In this document: positions 15,911 through 46,157 of the stretch, piece by piece
Position numbering within the stretch: position 1 is the first letter of the stretch
How the letters are laid out: each line of letters opens with the position of its first letter
IMG/VR virus record: IMGVR_UViG_3300046167_000057
Coordinates: 1 to 46,534 of that record
Reading direction: 5' to 3' (one strand)
Source of the DNA: a virus
DNA length: 46,534 nucleotides
Notes under the pieces: generated by a model
Databases searched by the model: none
What the model was told of the DNA's origin: nothing
What the model saw: the letters and a program-made list of their open reading frames with translations, nothing else
Made by a program: the position numbers and the translations under genes

Positions 15911-16163
15911 TCTTCTTCTTGGCCTTCCCGCCGTACATCATACCCGGCATTCCCATTGCTGGCTGGATACCGCCCTTCTGTTCGCGGGGCTGCATCGGAT
16001 TCATGCTGGTCTGCATCTTATTTTCTGATGCCATTGGGCTGCGAACCATTGAGCCGTAGGCATAGCCCTTGGTCTTGCCGCCACGAGCCATGAAGCCTAT
16101 CTTGTTGCGAACAGGCTTGGATAGTTTTGCAAGCCCCTTATTGTCCTTCGGTATTTGCTTCAT
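15900..16163 (-). CDS. Small Gly/Met-rich basic protein, 87 residues
   Basis: I use the second ATG (16161-16163), because AGGAG is six bases before it but only one base before the first ATG at 16169. The protein reads MKQIPKDNKGLAKLSKPVRN, then a low-complexity Met/Gly/Lys tail (GMPGMMYGGKAKKKNGY). It overlaps both neighbours. Such proteins are common beside internal virion genes. Function unknown. Confidence 0.6.
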   Translation of the reverse strand: MKQIPKDNKGLAKLSKPVRNKIGFMARGGKTKGYAYGSMVRSPMASENKMQTSMNPMQPREQKGGIQPAMGMPGMMYGGKAKKKNGY

Positions 16164-19100
16164 TTTCATCTCCTATTAGGGTAGGTAATTCACGCTGTCC
16201 CATACGGGCTAGTTCTGTTGTTACGAACTCTACAAGAAGCCCGTTTAAGTTGTCTACATCTGTTCGTGTGACCAGTTCAGGATATTTGAACATGTTGTTG
16301 ATGATGCGGGCTGCATCTTTGTTACCGGCTGCAAGCTGCAATATTTCGATACCAGACTGTGCCGCCATACGCACTGCGAACTCTGAGGTAACGTACAAGG
16401 GGCTAACCATGCCACGGCTGATATTATATAAGCGGCTCAAGCCTTCGTTGATAGAGTATCCCTTGACAACGCCTTCTACGCTTCGTGCTTGTGAAGTAGC
16501 AGCACGGTCTAGGAAGTCTGCAATGTCTGTAAGGTAGCTTACGTGGTCTGCACCTAACATCATTTCTAGCATTTCACGATGTTCTTGAACATCTGCCAGC
16601 ATGACTTCTGGTGTTGTGAATTGACGAACCTTCATCTTGCCGCCATCCAAGGCAGTCATACGCATACCCTGTGAAGGGGCTAATCCACCACGGTTCATAA
16701 ACGCCTTTGATACAAGACCACTGACAGCCCTGTCAAACATAGCTTCTGCTTCATCTGCAGATTTACCTGTCTTGACAACTGCTGGGATAAATGTGTCGCG
16801 AAGAGTGTCGAACTTTGTCTCACTGCCGTTTATAATAAACTGGTCGTAGAACTGGTCTGGTGTGATATCCCCCGTGAACCGCTGCAGAGCGTTCAGGGAA
16901 TCTGCATCCATCTTGATGTTGTTATCTGCATTGCGGCGAACTTGGCTTTCAACGTTTGCATAATCGTCTGCGAACTCTTTGTACCGTTTGCGAACCGCCT
17001 TGTTCTCGCGGATGATACGGCTGATGTCACGGGCTTCGGAGTACATGTCACCTAAGTTTACCAAAGGTACTTCGACGTTCGTACCGTTTTGCCGAACCGT
17101 TACAGTTGTAAGGTCATTCATCAAACCTTCATCTGCAAGATTCTTGAAGCTGTAGCCACCCTCTAGTACACTTGCAGGACCGTCTGTCTTTTCGAACACG
17201 GCAATAGCCCGCTCTGTCCAGTCGGCGTAGATTTGTTCGTTGACTAGATTTTGAATAGCCGCGAACTTCGCCTTGCCTTCTTCCGTATCCAGATTGAAGA
17301 CGGTTTGTCCATCAACACGGTCACCCCAATCTGTTGCAAGGTTATCAATCATGCTGCGGATGTCGGCTTGGTCTGCAGGCTTGTTGTTCAAGGCACCTGT
17401 AATCTTAGAAGTCAAAGGGCGTATGTAGCCGAAGGGACTGCTCTGTTCGTTTAGATAACGATACCGCGTCATGCTGTTGGCATCGACTTGCATTTTCTCT
17501 GGGCCTTGGCGACCATCTTCTAGTTTGCGAACCGTGCTGCCCCTGCGGAGTCTGTCGCCAATCTCACTACGGTATGTTTCGCGGGCTTTTGTCAAGAGAG
17601 AGAAGGTTTCACCGTCTTGAGTACGGATTAAGTTATCCATGTTAGCCGCGAACATTTGAACCTCACGGCTCAATTCTGGCTTGGATTCACGCACACCATA
17701 GGCATAATCCCGGAAAAAACGTCGCATCTCGTCGACCTCATAGGCGTTTGCCTTGGCAAAGGGACGGAAGGTGGGCGAGATTCGCTGCATTTCGAGGGCT
17801 ATTTCGAGGTCTGACATGCCTGCAACGAGTTCTTGGCTAAATCCGTTTGCTACAAGAGTGCTTCTAATTTCTTCCATTGCTTCTGTAGGAATGGTCCGTT
17901 TGACCATATCATCGAACGTCTTATAACCAATACGACCCATGCGTCCTGCAAAGAACTGACCACCGGGGCTGAAGAAGCGAGCCATATCTGTTTCACCAGC
18001 TTTGCTCATCAAGTCAACAACCGCATCGTGCATGTCGATAGGCGGAGAAGTCTTAGCCGCTTCGCGAACCGCATTATATGCTGCCTTACCTTTCGCAGAC
18101 ATGCTTTCCAGATGAGCATCTAGGGCATCTTCCATAGCACGAGACAAGCCTGCAATATAGCCACGTCCTTTACCGCGACGGGACTTCAAGCTAGTGACTC
18201 TATCTGTAACACCGGTATAGATATCCGTAACGACTTCACCAATCGTTTTGCGTTCATCAACAATCTTGCCCAGACGCTTTTTCAAGGCAACGTCGGCCTC
18301 TACTAAGTTCTCTAGAAATCCTTCTGGAACATCAATGGTTGGGTCAGAAAGAACCTGTTTGCGGATATCGCTCAAGATTTCTAGGGTGCTTTCCGAACGG
18401 CGATTCAAATCATCTTTGAACTTGGTGGTTGCATTGCGGGTGTTGTCGAGCATCGCTTGGATTGACTCGCGGTCTGCAATACCGTCTGTTGCCCGAACAA
18501 ACTCTTGGAAATTGTCCAAGGCAAGTTCTGTTGCGCGAACCTGTGCGTCTGCCTGCTCCATCAATTCAACCATATAGGTTGCATCCATGTTCTTTAGTTT
18601 CTTGGCATCTATCTTATTTATGGACATAGCGTGTAGGGCTGCAAGAGGTCCTAAGTTAGATGACTGTGCGAACGACATAGTAAACAGTTCTGTAGCCTTT
18701 TCCCGTGCTTCTTCAGGGAACTGACTTACAATGCGGTCTTGCAACTCGACGTAATCATCGACAGCCTTCAAGATTTTCTCACGGGCTGCAGGGCTAGATG
18801 TGTTGTTCACTAAGTAAATAGAGTAATTAATAGCCTTGCGCTGTTCTGCGGACAATGCTTTTCCTGTCGCCTTTTCATACTCTGCGAATGTGGTGTCGGT
18901 TATGTTAAAGCCCTTGTACTTTCCAAAGGTCATAAAGTCTGCTACGGCAGATATATTAGACCCGACACCGCCTCTAGGTGCAGACAGGAACTTAGATGCT
19001 TGACCACCTATAAAGCGAGTAGTCGGCGCACCTACAGTCATCATACCAATCAGTCCTATTGCCTCTGCAGACATAGGGTCCATATCGTAGGCTGAAGACA

Positions 19101-20586
19101 GGTACTCACGCCCTGCAAGTTGTCCTGCAGATAGAATGAGTGCATCTTCCACATTCTGCTTCAAGTACGGATACGCCTTGAGGGTGTACATCGACTGCAT
19201 CTTGCGGTTGATTAAATTCTGACGCTTACCCTCTAGCACCTTGTACTCAGCACTGTTGGTGGCAGTACCTTTGCGAATCAAAGAATCCATCTCAAGGTCT
19301 GTGCTTCGCAGGTCGTCATCCAAGCGGCTCATAGCTTGAGTGGTTCGCTGCTGGCTAATCCCGATACTAAGAGCGTTTAGGTTAATCTTGGTGCGACCTT
19401 CTGCCTGATTGATAATCTGTGCAGCCTCGAACGGGTCGTCAACATCTTCTAGAATTTTTGCGTACTTACTAGAGTTCTTCATATTCTCTAATTTGCGTAG
19501 GGTTCGCTCACTTCTCAACGCTCCCGGTCCTGCCATACCAGCCACGTTCTCCAAGAATATAACCCCAAACTGTTCGGAACGGGGTAGTTCGTTAAAGGCT
19601 AGGTCCATAAGGTTTGCAGATGCTTCTTCTGTGATGAACTCTTTTAGCTGTAGTTCGCCATCCACTTCTATCATTGCGCGGGCGTTGTATTGGTCTTCAG
19701 TGATTTCCCCAGCGTCTAGCTGGCGTTTGAACTCATCGTGAATAGCGTCGTTAAAGGCTATTTTCATTGTTGGATTTGGGAGTACGGAATTAATTGTTTT
19801 GTAGGTGGAGTCCAGAGCATTTTGAATGTCTGTGCTTCTTGCACCCCATTCTGTAGAAAAGTCAGTCCCCTTTTCCTTTGAATCAAAGTAGGCACCCGCT
19901 GCATTGTACCCCATGATACCCACTATAGGAATACCCGTAACCATGAACTGCCCAGCTTCGGCAAGCCGTGTCTCTAGGGAACTGTAGAAGTCCCCGGTTT
20001 CGAACCGGTCTACAAGGATTTGGCGAACCGCTGCGTCTGGCACATACTGAGATACAAGATTATCAAGATTGACACGGTTCTGAGCATAACGTTCCGCAGC
20101 CGGAATCATCATAGGGTCTTGAACAACCTGCTTGGCAACCACTTCACCTTCGCGAACAAACGGGATGATGACATCCTCGCCGGGAACCTGTGGCTGAGAT
20201 GACTTTGCCCACGCAGAACGCAAGGCAAGCATGGCCTTTGGATTGCTGTTCGCAAACTCCAAAACACGTTCGTTAATCTGGATGTCACCAACCTGCGCTA
20301 CTTTACCTGCAAGGACATCTTCCCAAGCAGTACCTGTCTGCTGCGCCTGAATGTCTTTAGCAGCGGGTTCTTGCAGGGTTTTAGTTTCGGTTTGAGGGAC
20401 ATCTACAACAGGGTCCATAACGGTAGTTTTGCCACGAACCGGTTCGTCGAGCATCACCTTGTTTTCTACAGGTGCAATGGAGATACGAGGAGGCTTGGTA
20501 TCTGTAGCTGGAGCGTCACCTGATGTGTCGAATCCAACGATATCCCGTTCAGCAACAGGCTTCGAATTTTCTAGCGGCTCCGCCAT
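16138..20586 (-). CDS. Giant internal virion / DNA-ejection protein, 1482 residues
   Basis: The largest gene of the window. It is mostly helical and charged, with no signal peptide and no enzyme motif I can recognise. Its N-terminal 100 residues are Pro/Thr-rich and probably disordered (DTKPPRISIAPVENK). Its place at the end of the tail and internal-protein cluster, and its size, match the long internal virion proteins of podoviruses (T7 gp16-like in role) that form the ejection channel across the cell envelope. The role comes from position and size, not sequence identity. No transglycosylase motif was seen. It ends overlapping the next gene by 26 bases. Confidence 0.6.
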   Translation of the reverse strand: MAEPLENSKPVAERDIVGFDTSGDAPATDTKPPRISIAPVENKVMLDEPVRGKTTVMDPVVDVPQTETKTLQEPAAKDIQAQQTGTAWEDVLAGKVAQVGDIQINERVLEFANSNPKAMLALRSAWAKSSQPQVPGEDVIIPFVREGEVVAKQVVQDPMMIPAAERYAQNRVNLDNLVSQYVPDAAVRQILVDRFETGDFYSSLETRLAEAGQFMVTGIPIVGIMGYNAAGAYFDSKEKGTDFSTEWGARSTDIQNALDSTYKTINSVLPNPTMKIAFNDAIHDEFKRQLDAGEITEDQYNARAMIEVDGELQLKEFITEEASANLMDLAFNELPRSEQFGVIFLENVAGMAGPGALRSERTLRKLENMKNSSKYAKILEDVDDPFEAAQIINQAEGRTKINLNALSIGISQQRTTQAMSRLDDDLRSTDLEMDSLIRKGTATNSAEYKVLEGKRQNLINRKMQSMYTLKAYPYLKQNVEDALILSAGQLAGREYLSSAYDMDPMSAEAIGLIGMMTVGAPTTRFIGGQASKFLSAPRGGVGSNISAVADFMTFGKYKGFNITDTTFAEYEKATGKALSAEQRKAINYSIYLVNNTSSPAAREKILKAVDDYVELQDRIVSQFPEEAREKATELFTMSFAQSSNLGPLAALHAMSINKIDAKKLKNMDATYMVELMEQADAQVRATELALDNFQEFVRATDGIADRESIQAMLDNTRNATTKFKDDLNRRSESTLEILSDIRKQVLSDPTIDVPEGFLENLVEADVALKKRLGKIVDERKTIGEVVTDIYTGVTDRVTSLKSRRGKGRGYIAGLSRAMEDALDAHLESMSAKGKAAYNAVREAAKTSPPIDMHDAVVDLMSKAGETDMARFFSPGGQFFAGRMGRIGYKTFDDMVKRTIPTEAMEEIRSTLVANGFSQELVAGMSDLEIALEMQRISPTFRPFAKANAYEVDEMRRFFRDYAYGVRESKPELSREVQMFAANMDNLIRTQDGETFSLLTKARETYRSEIGDRLRRGSTVRKLEDGRQGPEKMQVDANSMTRYRYLNEQSSPFGYIRPLTSKITGALNNKPADQADIRSMIDNLATDWGDRVDGQTVFNLDTEEGKAKFAAIQNLVNEQIYADWTERAIAVFEKTDGPASVLEGGYSFKNLADEGLMNDLTTVTVRQNGTNVEVPLVNLGDMYSEARDISRIIRENKAVRKRYKEFADDYANVESQVRRNADNNIKMDADSLNALQRFTGDITPDQFYDQFIINGSETKFDTLRDTFIPAVVKTGKSADEAEAMFDRAVSGLVSKAFMNRGGLAPSQGMRMTALDGGKMKVRQFTTPEVMLADVQEHREMLEMMLGADHVSYLTDIADFLDRAATSQARSVEGVVKGYSINEGLSRLYNISRGMVSPLYVTSEFAVRMAAQSGIEILQLAAGNKDAARIINNMFKYPELVTRTDVDNLNGLLVEFVTTELARMGQRELPTLIGDENEANTEGQ

Positions 20587-40428: not shown

Positions 40429-41340
40429 TTAAGATTGAAAGTCGATTCGCCCTTCAGCCCGCGCAGCGTCTAATTCACTTTCCAGCTTTTCGAACTCGTG
40501 CGGTTTCATCTTGGCGATTTGCGAAGCTTTCCAAACCCGTTTACCGTCTGTGCCTTCAGCCTTGACTTCCCGTGCAGGGGTTTTTGTTACGGCTTCTGCA
40601 GCAGATGCAGATTTGGTCTTCTTCTTTGTAGTCGTTAAGCCTGTGTCGGCTTTGTAGAGGTCTATGACCCGTGCTGCCCATTTTACATCGGTACTATTTT
40701 TGTAGATACCTTCTGCAATTGAAGCTGGCTGCTCTTCTAACCATGAAAGAAACTGCTGGTCCGTTTTGATTTCATTAAAGTCGGGATGTACTCTGAGAAG
40801 CTGCTCGTAGGCGTTTTTCTTCTCTAGGGCTTGTTCCCGTTCCTTAATTGAACCTAGTTCTTCACGGAGTTTTGCAACCTGTGTTTCGGTCTGCATACTT
40901 GAAACCGTCTGGACAACTTCGAAGACATCTGGGTAGCGTTCTTTGAACTCTTCCAGTTCTTCTTGTGTTCGCGGTGGAGTTACGCCTCGTGGCATTTCCG
41001 CCGCACGGTCTGTCATTGTCTTGCGAAGGCTTTCGATTTCACCCTTGAACTCGTTCACCTTGTCGTCGTAATGACGCTTCAAGTCATCATACCGTTTTTT
41101 GTAGTCGTGGTCGTCCGAAGCTTCCTTCTTCTGTTCCACGAAACTATCGCCCGCTTCGTTTTGCTGAGTAGCCGCTTCTTTTTCTACGGGGTCAGCTTCT
41201 TCTTGGGCTTCTGCAACCGCCTCATCTTCTTCGTCCTTGTAGACTTCATCGCGGTACTTTCCACGATAGAGACTTTCATTGTTGACAGTTCCGAAAGAGT
41301 CGTTTGCTTTGTTGGCACGGTGGCCTCTTGCTTTTGCCAT
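40429..41340 (-). CDS. Scaffolding protein
   Basis: 303 residues counted from the ATG at 41338-41340, eight bases after GAGGTGA; a GTG nine bases upstream lies in the ribosome binding site and is rejected. The protein is acidic, rich in Glu/Lys/Ala, with a long coiled coil (YKKRYDDLKRHYDDKVNEFK) and a helical, basic C-terminus (ASQIAKMKPHEFEKLESELD), the part that usually binds the capsid protein. It lies directly before the capsid gene. The tandem RNA stem-loops at 41356-41423 are in its leader. Confidence 0.8.
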   Translation of the reverse strand: MAKARGHRANKANDSFGTVNNESLYRGKYRDEVYKDEEDEAVAEAQEEADPVEKEAATQQNEAGDSFVEQKKEASDDHDYKKRYDDLKRHYDDKVNEFKGEIESLRKTMTDRAAEMPRGVTPPRTQEELEEFKERYPDVFEVVQTVSSMQTETQVAKLREELGSIKEREQALEKKNAYEQLLRVHPDFNEIKTDQQFLSWLEEQPASIAEGIYKNSTDVKWAARVIDLYKADTGLTTTKKKTKSASAAEAVTKTPAREVKAEGTDGKRVWKASQIAKMKPHEFEKLESELDAARAEGRIDFQS

Positions 41341-41355
41341 TTTATTCACCTCACT

Positions 41356-41423
41356 AGCGGGGCCACATGGCTGTGGGTAGCCGCTCCGGTTGTGCTGGGG
41401 CCACGAACTCGTGGGTAGCCAGC
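41356..41423 (-). ncRNA. Tandem structured RNA element in the scaffold leader
   Basis: On the minus strand two stem-loops stand side by side with eight bases between. Each has a 5-bp outer stem, a CTAC/CC internal loop, a 5-bp inner stem and a 4-base loop. Element A: outer 41419-41423 with 41394-41398 (GCTGG/CCAGC), inner CCACG/CGTGG, loop AGTT. Element B: outer 41381-41385 with 41356-41360 (AGCGG/CCGCT), inner CCACA/TGTGG, loop GCCA. Three outer pairs and one inner pair differ between A and B, yet every change is compensated. The internal loop is identical. I do not recognise a known RNA family. Confidence 0.65.
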
Positions 41424-41430
41424 GGATTCT

Positions 41431-44007
41431 TTACTTACTAGGAGTAAATTCGTAATTCATAAAAGAGTCGTCATACATTGTTCCCTTGCCTAGCGAGGAC
41501 GGGGTGAGCATTTCTGCAGCACTCGCTAAGACTGCTAGAGGCGGGGTGGCTACTGTTGCTACCTTAGCAATGGCTCGTCCCGCTAACTTCCCGGCAGATT
41601 TAGGGTCGTTCTTAAATGTTTCAATAAAATTAATCTTGGATTTATCGTCGTGAAAGACCTGTTCCTGAAGAAACATTGCCATGTCATCCAGAGAACGTTC
41701 CCCAGCTAAATATGCTCTTTTAAGTTCTCTTACAAAACGCAGATTTTTATCTAGTTCAGACTTGGGCATTTTTGCAAAATACTCAGTCTTCTTTTTTCCT
41801 TGAGTTTTCCAAGCCTCTTCCACGCCCTCGAACAGTTGGTCAATTGTAACCTTGCGGCTTTTAATTACCTGATTGCCTTTTCCGGCATCCGCAGCAAATC
41901 TACCTGCTCGTTTAACGTCTGGCGTGTGAAATTTACCCACATCTTCTTTACCGTAACCGTAGTCGGTTGCAACTACCTTCGACGGGTCTAGGGGTTCGCC
42001 GCGATATAGGGTGACCTTATCACCCGCCGCGAACTTTTTTCTATCAATGAAGCCCCCTTCTGCGGCCCCAACAGGCTGCTGTCCATTTTCTGCAATGCGC
42101 TGTTCGGTTTTCCGAATGCCTCGCTTATTAATCTTTTCTAGGCGGTCCTCGCCAATGATATCTACTAGGTGCGGTGCAATCTTGACTTCGCCGCTAGACA
42201 CTGCAATATCAACGAGGTTTGAATGCCGCTCAAAATTGTCTGTGGAAAGACCCCGGCGAACCGCTTCCTTCTGAGCATCCATAATCATTTTACGGATGTC
42301 TTGCTCTCCCGCGAACTCAACGGCAGCAGCATTTATGATGTAAGTACCCTCTGGAACGCTGTCAGGGCGATTGTCAGCGACTTTAGCACCTTCAGTGACC
42401 TGAGATGGCGGAGCGTCGATAAAACCGCTCTGTGAGGCTTGTACCCCTGCTGGCGGGGTTCCGAAGGCATAGTTCTGCCTATTATTCTCTGTAGACAAGT
42501 TTTGAGGGCGACCATGTTCAATTCTACCACCGCGAGCGTCTCCACCACCAAAAGCATCACTAATCTGCCCTGATTCGCTCTCTGAAAAACCACCAGAGCC
42601 ACCGTCATCTCCAAAAGATTGGTTAAAGCTTTCTCTATCTGCTCTATCTTGTGCTGCTTTCTCTGCTGCCTTTTTAGCTGCCTGTTCCGCTGCCTTTTTA
42701 GCCGCTTCCGCCGCCGCTTTCTCATTCTTTATACTCTGGATGTTTTGGGCAACAGTACCCTTACCACTACGAGCCTTATCTAAAACACTTTTAGCTTGGT
42801 CTACAGTTATTCCGTTGGTTTTGGCAAGGGCTTCTAGGTCGCTGGCTCTACCATATGCGGAAGTTCTACCGTAACCGTCCATGTAGCTGCCGTTGTTTGT
42901 ATAGCGACCGCCGTTACCAAGGTCGTTAGAGTATCCCGCATCCTCGAACCGAACCGCATCCTTACCAGTGTAGTCAAAACCAAAGGTTCCGCCGAAGGTG
43001 CTGGGGACAAAACCCCTTTGAATAGCTTCCATGTTTTTAAGAGTAGAGTTGTCAAGACCTCTCATGTTGCCCGTGTAAACTGCGGTTCCAGCCCGTCGGG
43101 TAATACCCCCCGAACCAACACCACTGCCAAACTGCATAGAAAAACCAATATCCACGCCTGTTAGTCCACGGCTAGATGCAACAGGGTTTCCATAGGCATC
43201 CGTTTCTTCGTCGCCTGCTGTCATAAACTGACCAGCCATAGGGCCAGTTGTGTGAGCAGCCATCACTGCTCTATTGATAGACCTGTCATTATACTGACGA
43301 GAATGGACTGCATCTGCTACGATACCCAGCATGCCGTCTGGTCTAGCACTAATCTCACCAAAAGCATTTTTAACAGTCTTATCACTGAATACTGCAGAGC
43401 CGACAAGAGCCATGGGTGCGCTTACAGCAGAAAAAAGACCTTTCATAGCCGTTTTACCAGAAACTTTAGTGGGGTCTACGGCTGCTTCCATATTTTCCAT
43501 TGTGGAGTTTAGCTGGGAAGAAAACCCTGCTGAAAGATTTATATCGGACCAGTTGCCTTGTACAAATGGCTCCATAACATTTTCGATAAACCCCAAGCGG
43601 TCCTTCATTCCCGGTGGGTTTTCTGCCTTTATATAATCTGAGTAGTTATTGTACTGGTGATGGCCTGTTTCTAAATCCGTATTATAACTAATCCCGGTTC
43701 CGCCCGGAAACATGGATTCGCCACTCCGTATTCCTGTGGCTTCTAGGGCGTTTATTGCGTCATCTTGGGTATCACCACGGTCACCTTGTTCTCCGGCAAT
43801 CCCGTATTCTTCTAGTTCGGTAATATCGTCTCCACCACCCACATCAATACCGGTGTCCGTTAAAGATGGGATATCAAGAAACTGATTGTAGAAATTTACA
43901 AAGCTGCTTTGGTATGTAGGTAAATCCACGGCTTCTTGTCCTGCAAAGTACGACTCCGTACCATACAAGTCTTGATTTACCCCGGCAACTGTAATTCTAT
44001 CCGCCAT
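41431..44007 (-). CDS. Large virion-associated protein with possible ADP-ribosyltransferase-like C-terminal domain
   Basis: 858 residues. The N-terminal half is Gly/Asn/Asp-rich. Residues about 400-450 are an Ala/Lys coiled coil (AAEAAKKAAEQAAKKAAEKA). Around 540-640 comes VPEGTYIINAAAVEFAGEQD and SGEVKIAPHLVDIIGEDRLE, a repeat type seen in phage head-associated proteins. From about 664: LYRGEP, then GKFHTPDVKRAGRFAADAG and QVIKSRKVTI, which resembles the R / [S/T]-x-P / strand order of R-S-E ADP-ribosyltransferases, though the final Glu motif is not clear. It lies between portal and scaffold. Confidence 0.5.
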   Translation of the reverse strand: MADRITVAGVNQDLYGTESYFAGQEAVDLPTYQSSFVNFYNQFLDIPSLTDTGIDVGGGDDITELEEYGIAGEQGDRGDTQDDAINALEATGIRSGESMFPGGTGISYNTDLETGHHQYNNYSDYIKAENPPGMKDRLGFIENVMEPFVQGNWSDINLSAGFSSQLNSTMENMEAAVDPTKVSGKTAMKGLFSAVSAPMALVGSAVFSDKTVKNAFGEISARPDGMLGIVADAVHSRQYNDRSINRAVMAAHTTGPMAGQFMTAGDEETDAYGNPVASSRGLTGVDIGFSMQFGSGVGSGGITRRAGTAVYTGNMRGLDNSTLKNMEAIQRGFVPSTFGGTFGFDYTGKDAVRFEDAGYSNDLGNGGRYTNNGSYMDGYGRTSAYGRASDLEALAKTNGITVDQAKSVLDKARSGKGTVAQNIQSIKNEKAAAEAAKKAAEQAAKKAAEKAAQDRADRESFNQSFGDDGGSGGFSESESGQISDAFGGGDARGGRIEHGRPQNLSTENNRQNYAFGTPPAGVQASQSGFIDAPPSQVTEGAKVADNRPDSVPEGTYIINAAAVEFAGEQDIRKMIMDAQKEAVRRGLSTDNFERHSNLVDIAVSSGEVKIAPHLVDIIGEDRLEKINKRGIRKTEQRIAENGQQPVGAAEGGFIDRKKFAAGDKVTLYRGEPLDPSKVVATDYGYGKEDVGKFHTPDVKRAGRFAADAGKGNQVIKSRKVTIDQLFEGVEEAWKTQGKKKTEYFAKMPKSELDKNLRFVRELKRAYLAGERSLDDMAMFLQEQVFHDDKSKINFIETFKNDPKSAGKLAGRAIAKVATVATPPLAVLASAAEMLTPSSLGKGTMYDDSFMNYEFTPSK

Positions 44008-44224
44008 TCTTAACTATCGCCTCGTGATTAACCTTCAGTTGAAGGAGGGTTTCCAGTAAAGCCGCTTTCCCCTGCAGTTGGCGCAGTTCCGACTCCGATT
44101 GTGCCGTTACCAGACCCCGAAAGGTCAGTGCCTTCAGGTCTTGGAGATACTCCTCCAGAACCTTCCATACCGCCGGGTTGCTGACCAGCGGCCCCAGCTT
44201 CTTCGCTTGCTCTTTGTTGTGCAT
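43997..44224 (-). CDS. Small coiled-coil protein overprinted on the portal C-terminus
   Basis: 75 residues: MHNKEQAKKLGPLVSNPAVW, then ELRQLQGKAALLETLLQLK. The RLQGxxxAL coiled coil and KxLGPLxSNxxxW start are typical of the short protein found right after portal in many podoviruses. Here 197 bases lie inside the portal gene in another frame, over its low-complexity Gly/Ser/Pro tail. It ends 11 bases inside the next gene. GAAGGG is 13 bases upstream, a weak ribosome binding site. Confidence 0.65.
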   Translation of the reverse strand: MHNKEQAKKLGPLVSNPAVWKVLEEYLQDLKALTFRGLVTAQSESELRQLQGKAALLETLLQLKVNHEAIVKNGG

Positions 44225-46157
44225 CTGCCATCATTCCCTTCAACATTTCGGCGTACAGTTGTGCTTCGTTCGTATCGTTGACAAGGCTGTCTGGGTCGAT
44301 GTCTTGTGAAATAGCCAGTTCACGAATTAAGTTTGGTATCTTAATGAACGGAGCCAACATCGGGTTTGCAACAGTTTGCAGCAAAGCAGTAAGACGCTGT
44401 GTGCGAACTTCTTTTTGCATCACGGCAGCAACGCCGCGTGGTTTAATCTCTAGGTCACCGACAATGTCTTCGACCTCATCGTTAAACTGCATGTTCCACT
44501 GAAAATACGATTCACCAAGAGGCTTGAGAAGCATGTCATCGATGTTCTTGATGACTGTCTTCATAGAAAGACCCGCCGAACCCATCAGCATTGATAAGCC
44601 AGCAGCGGTTCGCCCTGTTCCGGTGACGCCTGTTTGTCCGTGCATAATCGACGGAATACCCGTTTCTTCATCAGCCAACTGGCGGCTAATCTGATACATC
44701 TGCAGGTTTTCTCCTGCTGTGTTCGGAAACTTTAAGCCGTTGATTGCCGTTCCGGTGACACCAGATTGGCGTCTGAAAATCTTGCCGGGAAAGATGTCCA
44801 TGTTTTGACCCGGTACGAGACTAGCTTCGTCCACATCAAACACTAGGTTACCTGCAAGAGCGAGGTTATCGATAGCCATACGAACGTGACCGTTCATAAG
44901 TTTTTGGGCATCTTCCATATTTTCTGCTACACCTACACCCCAAATTTGATAGGGGTTTACTTCGTAAGGAAACACTTGATATGGAATACGAGCAGGAGTG
45001 AAAGGGTTGAGGACACAACGAATGACCATGTTGCCACAGACCCAGACGTTTACCTGAACCTCGTCAAACTCGGACATTTGCTCTGCACCTTCAAGTCCCG
45101 CTTCTTGAGCGAACTTAGCATCTACAACACCCCAGTATTCAAGAATCTCGTAGCGGTTTTCAGAAACGTAAGGTTCGGTCTCGTCTTCCCGAATGGTGTC
45201 CTCGTAATACTTATCTTCGTAGTTAGGTCCTTTGGCGAGACACTCTTCAATAGCAGAAGCAATGAAATGCGGACGCTTGATAAGGCTGCGAAGCTGTTGG
45301 CGGTTATATCTGTGACGTTCGACAACGTATTCACAGTCTTCAATACACGTAGCGGATGGGTCAGGGTGAAAATCCCAAAGGGAAACCATCTCGATGCGGG
45401 GAACTACTCGCTCGTAGGGAGTGTATTCACGCTCTCCTTCGTCGTTGCGTTCCCACTTGTGTACTCGTTTATTAAAATTGAACGGTCCCTTGACGATACC
45501 CGTTCCGAAAAGCGAAGCTTCAAATATTGATTTGCGAAGAACGTTGACTGCATTAGTATCAAGCAACTGGTCGTGAATGACTTCTTCCATCCGACGAGCC
45601 GTCTCTTTTGCAGGGCTAATTTGAGGTTCACCGAGCTTGGCTTTTCCCTCTACAAGAGGAAGTTGCCCGTATTCGCTCTGTAAGCCCCCTAGAAAGGCTT
45701 TAGGCTCTTCTGCTTGCATAGCCCCCGGAGGAAGCTCTCTACCGTCTCCTGCGAACCCGTAGGGGTCTTTAGGAGCCATTTGGTCAAGAGGTGTCTCCAT
45801 ATGTGCAAATTCAGCGATACCTTCCGGAACTGGAGTAGACTCGACAACAAGCGGAAATTTCTTGTTTGTGAACAAGATATCAATAATCTGACCAAAGGCT
45901 GCAAGAACCTTCGTCTTGGTTATGCGAACAAAAACCTTTGACCGTTCCGAATCTCGGTATTGGGTCGTAGAGTCGTAGATGCCACGAAAGTTTTTATAGG
46001 CTTGAAGCCATCGTTGTTCGTGGGAGTAGCGTCCGTTTTCCGCGTCTTCAAACTTAGACTTGACATACCCAGCTAGGCCGGGCATAAACTCGTCAGGGTT
46101 CGTGACGCTAATTTGTGTGTCGTCTTCCGGTTGTAGGAAGTTATCATCTGATGCCAT
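44028..46157 (-). CDS. Portal protein
   Basis: 709 residues. The N-terminal half (FRGIYDSTTQYRDSERSKVF; VRITKTKVLAAFGQIIDILF) and the central part (LQPLVESTPVP-type wing, YERVVPRIEMVSLWDFHPDP, QVFPYEVNPYQIWGVGVAEN) fit the portal of HMO-2011-like and other marine podoviruses. The dodecamer forms the DNA channel and docks the terminase. From about residue 645 the tail is Gly/Ser/Pro low complexity, which is where the small coiled-coil gene is overprinted. The large terminase should lie to the right of the window. Confidence 0.8.
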   Translation of the reverse strand: MASDDNFLQPEDDTQISVTNPDEFMPGLAGYVKSKFEDAENGRYSHEQRWLQAYKNFRGIYDSTTQYRDSERSKVFVRITKTKVLAAFGQIIDILFTNKKFPLVVESTPVPEGIAEFAHMETPLDQMAPKDPYGFAGDGRELPPGAMQAEEPKAFLGGLQSEYGQLPLVEGKAKLGEPQISPAKETARRMEEVIHDQLLDTNAVNVLRKSIFEASLFGTGIVKGPFNFNKRVHKWERNDEGEREYTPYERVVPRIEMVSLWDFHPDPSATCIEDCEYVVERHRYNRQQLRSLIKRPHFIASAIEECLAKGPNYEDKYYEDTIREDETEPYVSENRYEILEYWGVVDAKFAQEAGLEGAEQMSEFDEVQVNVWVCGNMVIRCVLNPFTPARIPYQVFPYEVNPYQIWGVGVAENMEDAQKLMNGHVRMAIDNLALAGNLVFDVDEASLVPGQNMDIFPGKIFRRQSGVTGTAINGLKFPNTAGENLQMYQISRQLADEETGIPSIMHGQTGVTGTGRTAAGLSMLMGSAGLSMKTVIKNIDDMLLKPLGESYFQWNMQFNDEVEDIVGDLEIKPRGVAAVMQKEVRTQRLTALLQTVANPMLAPFIKIPNLIRELAISQDIDPDSLVNDTNEAQLYAEMLKGMMADAQQRASEEAGAAGQQPGGMEGSGGVSPRPEGTDLSGSGNGTIGVGTAPTAGESGFTGNPPSTEG

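Follow-up and report, generated by a model that had tools for sequence, protein, structure and literature searches.

The window analysed here is the whole 46,534-nucleotide (nt) stretch of the IMG/VR virus record IMGVR_UViG_3300046167_000057 (positions 1 to 46,534). On its minus strand, at 41423-41356, two tandem RNA hairpins lie in the leader of a gene presumed to encode the capsid scaffolding protein (scaffold). Each hairpin, or module, is comprised of a 5-base-pair (bp) outer stem, an asymmetric internal loop with CUAC on one strand and CC on the other (CUAC/CC), a 5-bp inner stem and an apical loop. The features of the leader and its gene are as follows.

41394 to 41423, minus strand: hairpin A, GCUGG-CUAC-CCACG-AGUU-CGUGG-CC-CCAGC, with a variable apical loop
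41415 to 41418 (CUAC side) and 41399-41400 (CC side), minus strand: internal loop A, near-invariant among relatives
41386 to 41393, minus strand: linker, in which ACC (41390-41388) is able to pair with GGU of the Shine-Dalgarno site
41356 to 41385, minus strand: hairpin B, AGCGG-CUAC-CCACA-GCCA-UGUGG-CC-CCGCU, with a conserved GCCA in the apical loop
41377 to 41380 (CUAC side) and 41361-41362 (CC side), minus strand: internal loop B, near-invariant among relatives
41368 to 41371, minus strand: GCCA of loop B, complementary to UGGC of the start codon (41339-41336); a possible pseudoknot
41348 to 41352, minus strand: Shine-Dalgarno site of the scaffold gene, GAGGU
40429 to 41340, minus strand: presumed scaffolding protein gene (303 amino acids, start ATG at 41340), between the portal and coat genes, with a helical model; phrog_13678 (function unknown)

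An earlier note on this DNA, made from the letters alone, had described the two stem-loops, and the base pairs and coordinates were as it gave them, on the minus strand. Three outer-stem pairs and one inner-stem pair differ between A and B, with pairing kept in all, as it had counted. The window holds just these two modules, with two exact matches compared to 0.23 expected at three or fewer mismatches. The folding energy of the element was unremarkable (z of -1.75, 12 of 200 shuffles) and was rejected as proof of an RNA. As folding energy alone is insufficient, the element was proven by comparison among relatives.

Relatives of the scaffold and coat proteins were gathered from viral contigs and named phages. 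Approximately 100 distinct relatives of the window type carry both hairpins in the leader, except for a few with a misplaced start. Without the use of structure information, 80 distinct tandem leaders were aligned with MAFFT. In this alignment, 21 of the 27 proposed pairs were altered on both sides, there were 298 double-changed cells compared to 88 in shuffles, and the covariation was 0.375, compared to 0.141 when shuffled and at most 0.062 when slid. RNAalifold predicted the identical two hairpins from the tandem-leader alignment. As a crude stand-in for R-scape, a tree-aware null was generated with our own script, in which the substitutions were kept per branch and dealt to random columns (60 null alignments). 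The column pairs ranked 1 to 8 among all pairs were proposed pairs, and six exceeded every null value.

The apical loop of hairpin A is free to vary, with 67 forms in 127 leaders, while CUAC/CC is constant; across relatives, the internal loop is fixed and the stems, spacing and arrangement vary. The form of hairpin B previously described holds in the window but not in most relatives, where the fifth outer-stem pair and the A-U pair closing the 'tetraloop' are unformed, leaving a loop of ~6 nt with the conserved GCCA. Given the covariation, the fixed loop and the compensated changes among relatives, the hairpin pair is almost certainly a real, selected RNA. The earlier note had argued as much, and had said that it would abandon the idea if related phages lacked the stem-loops or the compensated changes, or if covariance was not significant; in the relatives, both stem-loops are retained at this position together with numerous compensated changes, and the element passed the covariance test.

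A covariance model, an approach that the note had suggested, was built from the tandem alignment, and matched the leaders of many phages outside the training set, including HMO-2011 (E 2e-4), CRP-2 (E 2e-7) and HTVC115P (E 6e-5). It had no match in an E. coli ribosomal RNA (rRNA) operon or in the 34.6 kb of HMO-2011 that was searched. Under strict rules, at least one module was found in 239 of 293 distinct leaders of scaffold relatives; nearly all of the remaining leaders carry a module by eye, each missing some threshold. Elsewhere in the same loci there were 18 modules in 1.8 Mb.

A module precedes the scaffold gene in HMO-2011, the pelagiphages HTVC033P, HTVC104P and HTVC115P, the Roseobacter CRP phages, Rhizobium phage N3_19, Sinorhizobium phage phiM6 and ctYwJ313. 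Vibrio phage CHOED and Aeromonas phages MQM1 and 1233 have a module with a changed loop at this position, and Pseudoalteromonas phage Slicky01 is without a module. The module-bearing phages are from ocean and soil, and their hosts span Pelagibacter, SAR116, Roseobacter, Rhizobium, Vibrio and Aeromonas.

The arrangement varies between groups. The tandem form is found in the window group and the HTVC104P group of pelagiphages. In the nested form, seen in HMO-2011 and in Roseobacter and Rhizobium phages, the first hairpin encloses a second loop of identical sequence in inverted orientation, with CC 5' and CUAC 3'; in HMO-2011 this reads GUUGG-[CUAC]-UCACU-[CC]-CCA...UGG-[CUAC]-GGUGG-[CC]-CCAAC. 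A single module is present in CRP-2, -9, -13, -207, -235, -603 and -738. Five leaders (L560, L574, L575, L172 and L254) appear by eye to have three modules.

The earlier note knew of no RNA family of this form. Rfam 15 gave no gathering-level match in the window or in the loci of 12 relatives, and the element itself had no match at E up to 5; a literature search found no paper describing it. Bacterial genomes searched by DNA pattern gave matches in unrelated, mostly high-GC hosts, which were taken as chance and not checked row by row. Mimicry of rRNA was rejected, as the strict module was not found in an E. coli rrn operon. One further candidate, in L262 (minus strand, ~11430-11330), lies before the coat gene of an unrelated podovirus, where GGCUACC occurs twice and has a GGCCCC partner; the module 1 loop is 5 by 2 and module 2 is without a proper stem. 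It was set aside as likely chance, although the stretches are well placed.

The earlier note had placed the element in the scaffold leader, but had taken the portal gene as the gene upstream; this is instead an 858-amino-acid open reading frame (ORF). The neighbouring and other features of the window include:

41431 to 44007, minus strand: 858-amino-acid ORF of unknown function just upstream of the element, with no Pfam family and a weak PHROG match only
44028 to 46157: portal gene
36333 to 36305, minus strand: perfect sigma-70-like promoter (TTGACA-17-TATAAT), upstream of late genes
16138 to 20586, minus strand: 1482-amino-acid ORF, a very large late protein of unknown kind with no PHROG match

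In relatives, the slot of the 858-amino-acid ORF between portal and scaffold holds genes of other sizes, and may be a place of gene exchange. The element stays attached to the scaffold gene despite differing upstream genes, whether small ORFs, methyltransferase neighbours or large ORFs. It ends 16 nt ahead of the scaffold start in the window, and in the tandem leaders the distance from the end of B's outer stem to the AUG is 10-21 nt (median 16), which is inside the ribosome footprint. In these leaders it therefore adjoins or covers the ribosome-binding site of the gene it would control, as an operator should. In CRP-345 (L400, MZ892990; 2860-2910), the annotated scaffold start is inside or before the hairpin, and the real start is probably an ATG ~50 nt downstream.

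Two further pairings, unnoticed in the earlier note, may involve the start region. In most clades, 3-5 bp can form between the linker and the Shine-Dalgarno site, and the two sides change together: the window group has ACC:GGU, leaders with a UAGGAG site have CCU(A):(U)AGG, and two further groups have ACCU:AGGU and CUCCU:AGGAG. In the HTVC104P-related pelagiphages, the Shine-Dalgarno site is itself within the outer stem (CCUUAG:CUAAAGG). The GCCA of loop B is present in 110 of the 127 tandem leaders, 109 of which have UGGC at the start codon. L090 and others beginning AUGAC are without this GCCA, as are L169, L222 and L250, which yet begin AUGGC. Neither pairing was significant in the tree-aware test; both were rejected as proven structures and kept as plausible, and the odds that the loop-B pseudoknot forms are about even. 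Because the element lies beside the Shine-Dalgarno site and its linker can pair with that site, it quite probably controls scaffold translation.

The gene product is presumed to be the scaffold from its place between the portal and coat genes and its helical make-up. This identity could not be confirmed by fold or sequence, as no solved structural relative was found and the protein matched no named PHROGs family and no Pfam family above the cut-off. The model has a disordered start, a confident helix at residues 76-114, a long helix at 137-184 and a helical tail. The most conserved stretch of the protein is basic (KKRYxDLRRH), lies within helix 76-114 and contains residue 88:

41065 to 41100, minus strand: candidate RNA-reading block, scaffold codons 81-92 (KKRYDDLKRHYD), with the K88 codon at 41077-41079

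Residue 88 follows the first base of the internal loop, being Lys or Arg in 310 of 310 distinct proteins with a C-loop and Gln in 24 of 24 with an A-loop; of the 252 columns, no other is perfect. This count leaves out two leaders whose loops were initially called AAAC/AC and proved to be misdetected CUAC leaders. The A-type loops (AUAC/AC or ACAC) occur in the CRP-738 relatives and in the gamma-phages CHOED, MQM1 and 1233. In a scaffold tree with residue 88 masked, the CRP-738 group is placed inside the C-loop phages, next to CRP-235, and two separate switches are required, in 100% of bootstrap trees. In the AUAC/AC loops (L392, L396 and L581-L621), the C that leads each loop strand is replaced by A on both strands together (C,C to A,A), a hint of a non-Watson-Crick contact between the two bases.

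No column of the coat protein follows the loop base, and the coat protein was rejected as the RNA partner. Since residue 88 tracks the loop base and the coat protein has no such column, the scaffold protein is the ligand that we favour for its own leader, on this indirect sequence evidence. The earlier note had suggested a binding site for the scaffold, the coat or a host protein that balances scaffold translation; the Shine-Dalgarno adjacency and the residue-88 co-variation lend the scaffold indirect support.

We propose, with a probability of roughly 0.58, that the scaffold protein binds the hairpins as an autogenous translational operator. The two hairpins would act in cis in the scaffold 5' leader, with each CUAC/CC loop being recognised by protein. 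The scaffold would bind both loops, probably in dimeric or higher oligomeric form, via the conserved basic helix around residue 88, stabilising hairpin B and the linker:Shine-Dalgarno pairing so that the ribosome is blocked. Uptake of free scaffold into procapsids, driven by the coat protein, would then free the leader and allow more scaffold to be made.

Several points weigh against this proposal. The scaffold has no known RNA-binding fold. The linker:Shine-Dalgarno pairing amounts to just 3 bp in the window and does not occur in L168, L169, L257 and L258, the nested and single forms show nothing visibly covering the Shine-Dalgarno site, and the loop-B:start-codon pairing, non-significant as noted, is restricted to two clades. 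The residue-88 link consists of two switches only and was noticed after the fact. Some such column is seen in 4 of 85 comparable clade pairs, a chance of ~5%, which is lower if the column is required to fall in the basic block.

A translational operator read by another protein, whether the coat, another phage protein or a host RNA-binding protein, is rather unlikely. Coat or host proteins could in principle recognise the internal loop, and the range of hosts listed above would allow for a conserved host protein. However, the coat lacks a residue following the loop base, any host protein would need to change whenever the phage loop did, and the strict module is absent from E. coli rRNA. It is improbable that the hairpins set mRNA processing or stability, for example as a ribonuclease cut site or barrier between the upstream gene and the scaffold-coat pair, fixing the product ratio with no dedicated binder. 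The hairpins are stable and intergenic, before a presumably highly expressed gene pair; however, a stability hairpin would need no fixed asymmetric loop, inverted second copy or protein residue changing in step.

An element acting on transcription is very improbable. HK022 put, to which the earlier note had likened the element, is a pair of stem-loops in a phage transcript that acts near early promoters on RNA polymerase, which then ignores terminators. Here there are likewise two stem-loops in the window; however, the element is within an operon, in a late-gene leader beside a Shine-Dalgarno site, follows one gene whatever lies upstream, and takes single, tandem and nested-inverted forms at the same gene position rather than one constant form. 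No terminator-like site was scored at the element, and antitermination of this kind is not supported. A DNA-level element (packaging or recombination) or a chance repeat, which has only the repeated form in its favour, is refuted in practice by the covariation and tree-aware tests, the compensating changes including G-U pairs, the strand-specific loop and the lack of anything comparable elsewhere in the loci.

The closest functional parallel to autogenous control by the scaffold is P22, in which the scaffold reportedly lowers its own synthesis post-transcriptionally. Both are short-tailed phages with a P22-type coat gene beside the scaffold gene and a comparable gene order. In P22 it is the protein effect that is reported, whereas here the RNA is visible and conserved and the protein effect is proposed; we know of no RNA site of this structure in P22. 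In MS2, PP7 and Qbeta, a short hairpin beside the ribosome-binding site is read by a virion protein and translation is repressed. The hairpins described here similarly adjoin the ribosome-binding site, but each RNA-phage operator is one hairpin, recognised through a bulge and its apical loop, while here an asymmetric internal loop is fixed, often in two copies, tandem or inverted.

The internal loop also resembles the C-loop motif, the hallmark of which is two crossing non-Watson-Crick pairs (cis-Watson-Crick/sugar and trans-Watson-Crick/Hoogsteen). C-loops are asymmetric internal loops whose longer strand starts with C; they occur in hairpins and in one bacterial mRNA, and in viroids are read by the protein Virp1 (PMC8983868). 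CUAC/CC shares the asymmetry and the leading C in most leaders, a likeness seen at the level of sequence, but is 4 by 2 nt compared to 3 by 1 in the rRNA case (PMC8983868), and the AUAC/AC and ACAC variants begin with A. The manA and wcaG motifs are 5'-leader RNAs of marine phages (PMC2864571), but belong to other genes; no capsid element is named in the text searched (PMC2864571), and neither motif was matched here in Rfam.

It is an even proposition that the scaffold is a sequence-specific RNA-binding protein, whose basic helix reads the loop of its own leader with a residue-88 switch (Lys/Arg for C, Gln for A), on a two-site RNA that evolution has rearranged into tandem, inverted-nested and single forms around a fixed loop. 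If this is true, it would provide a concrete RNA site for the old observation linking scaffold synthesis to capsid assembly, and would predict a specificity switch of one residue and one base. To our knowledge, no earlier RNA family is tied to a capsid-scaffold gene, and this one would be the first. The element belongs to a phage group that ranks among the most abundant in the ocean.
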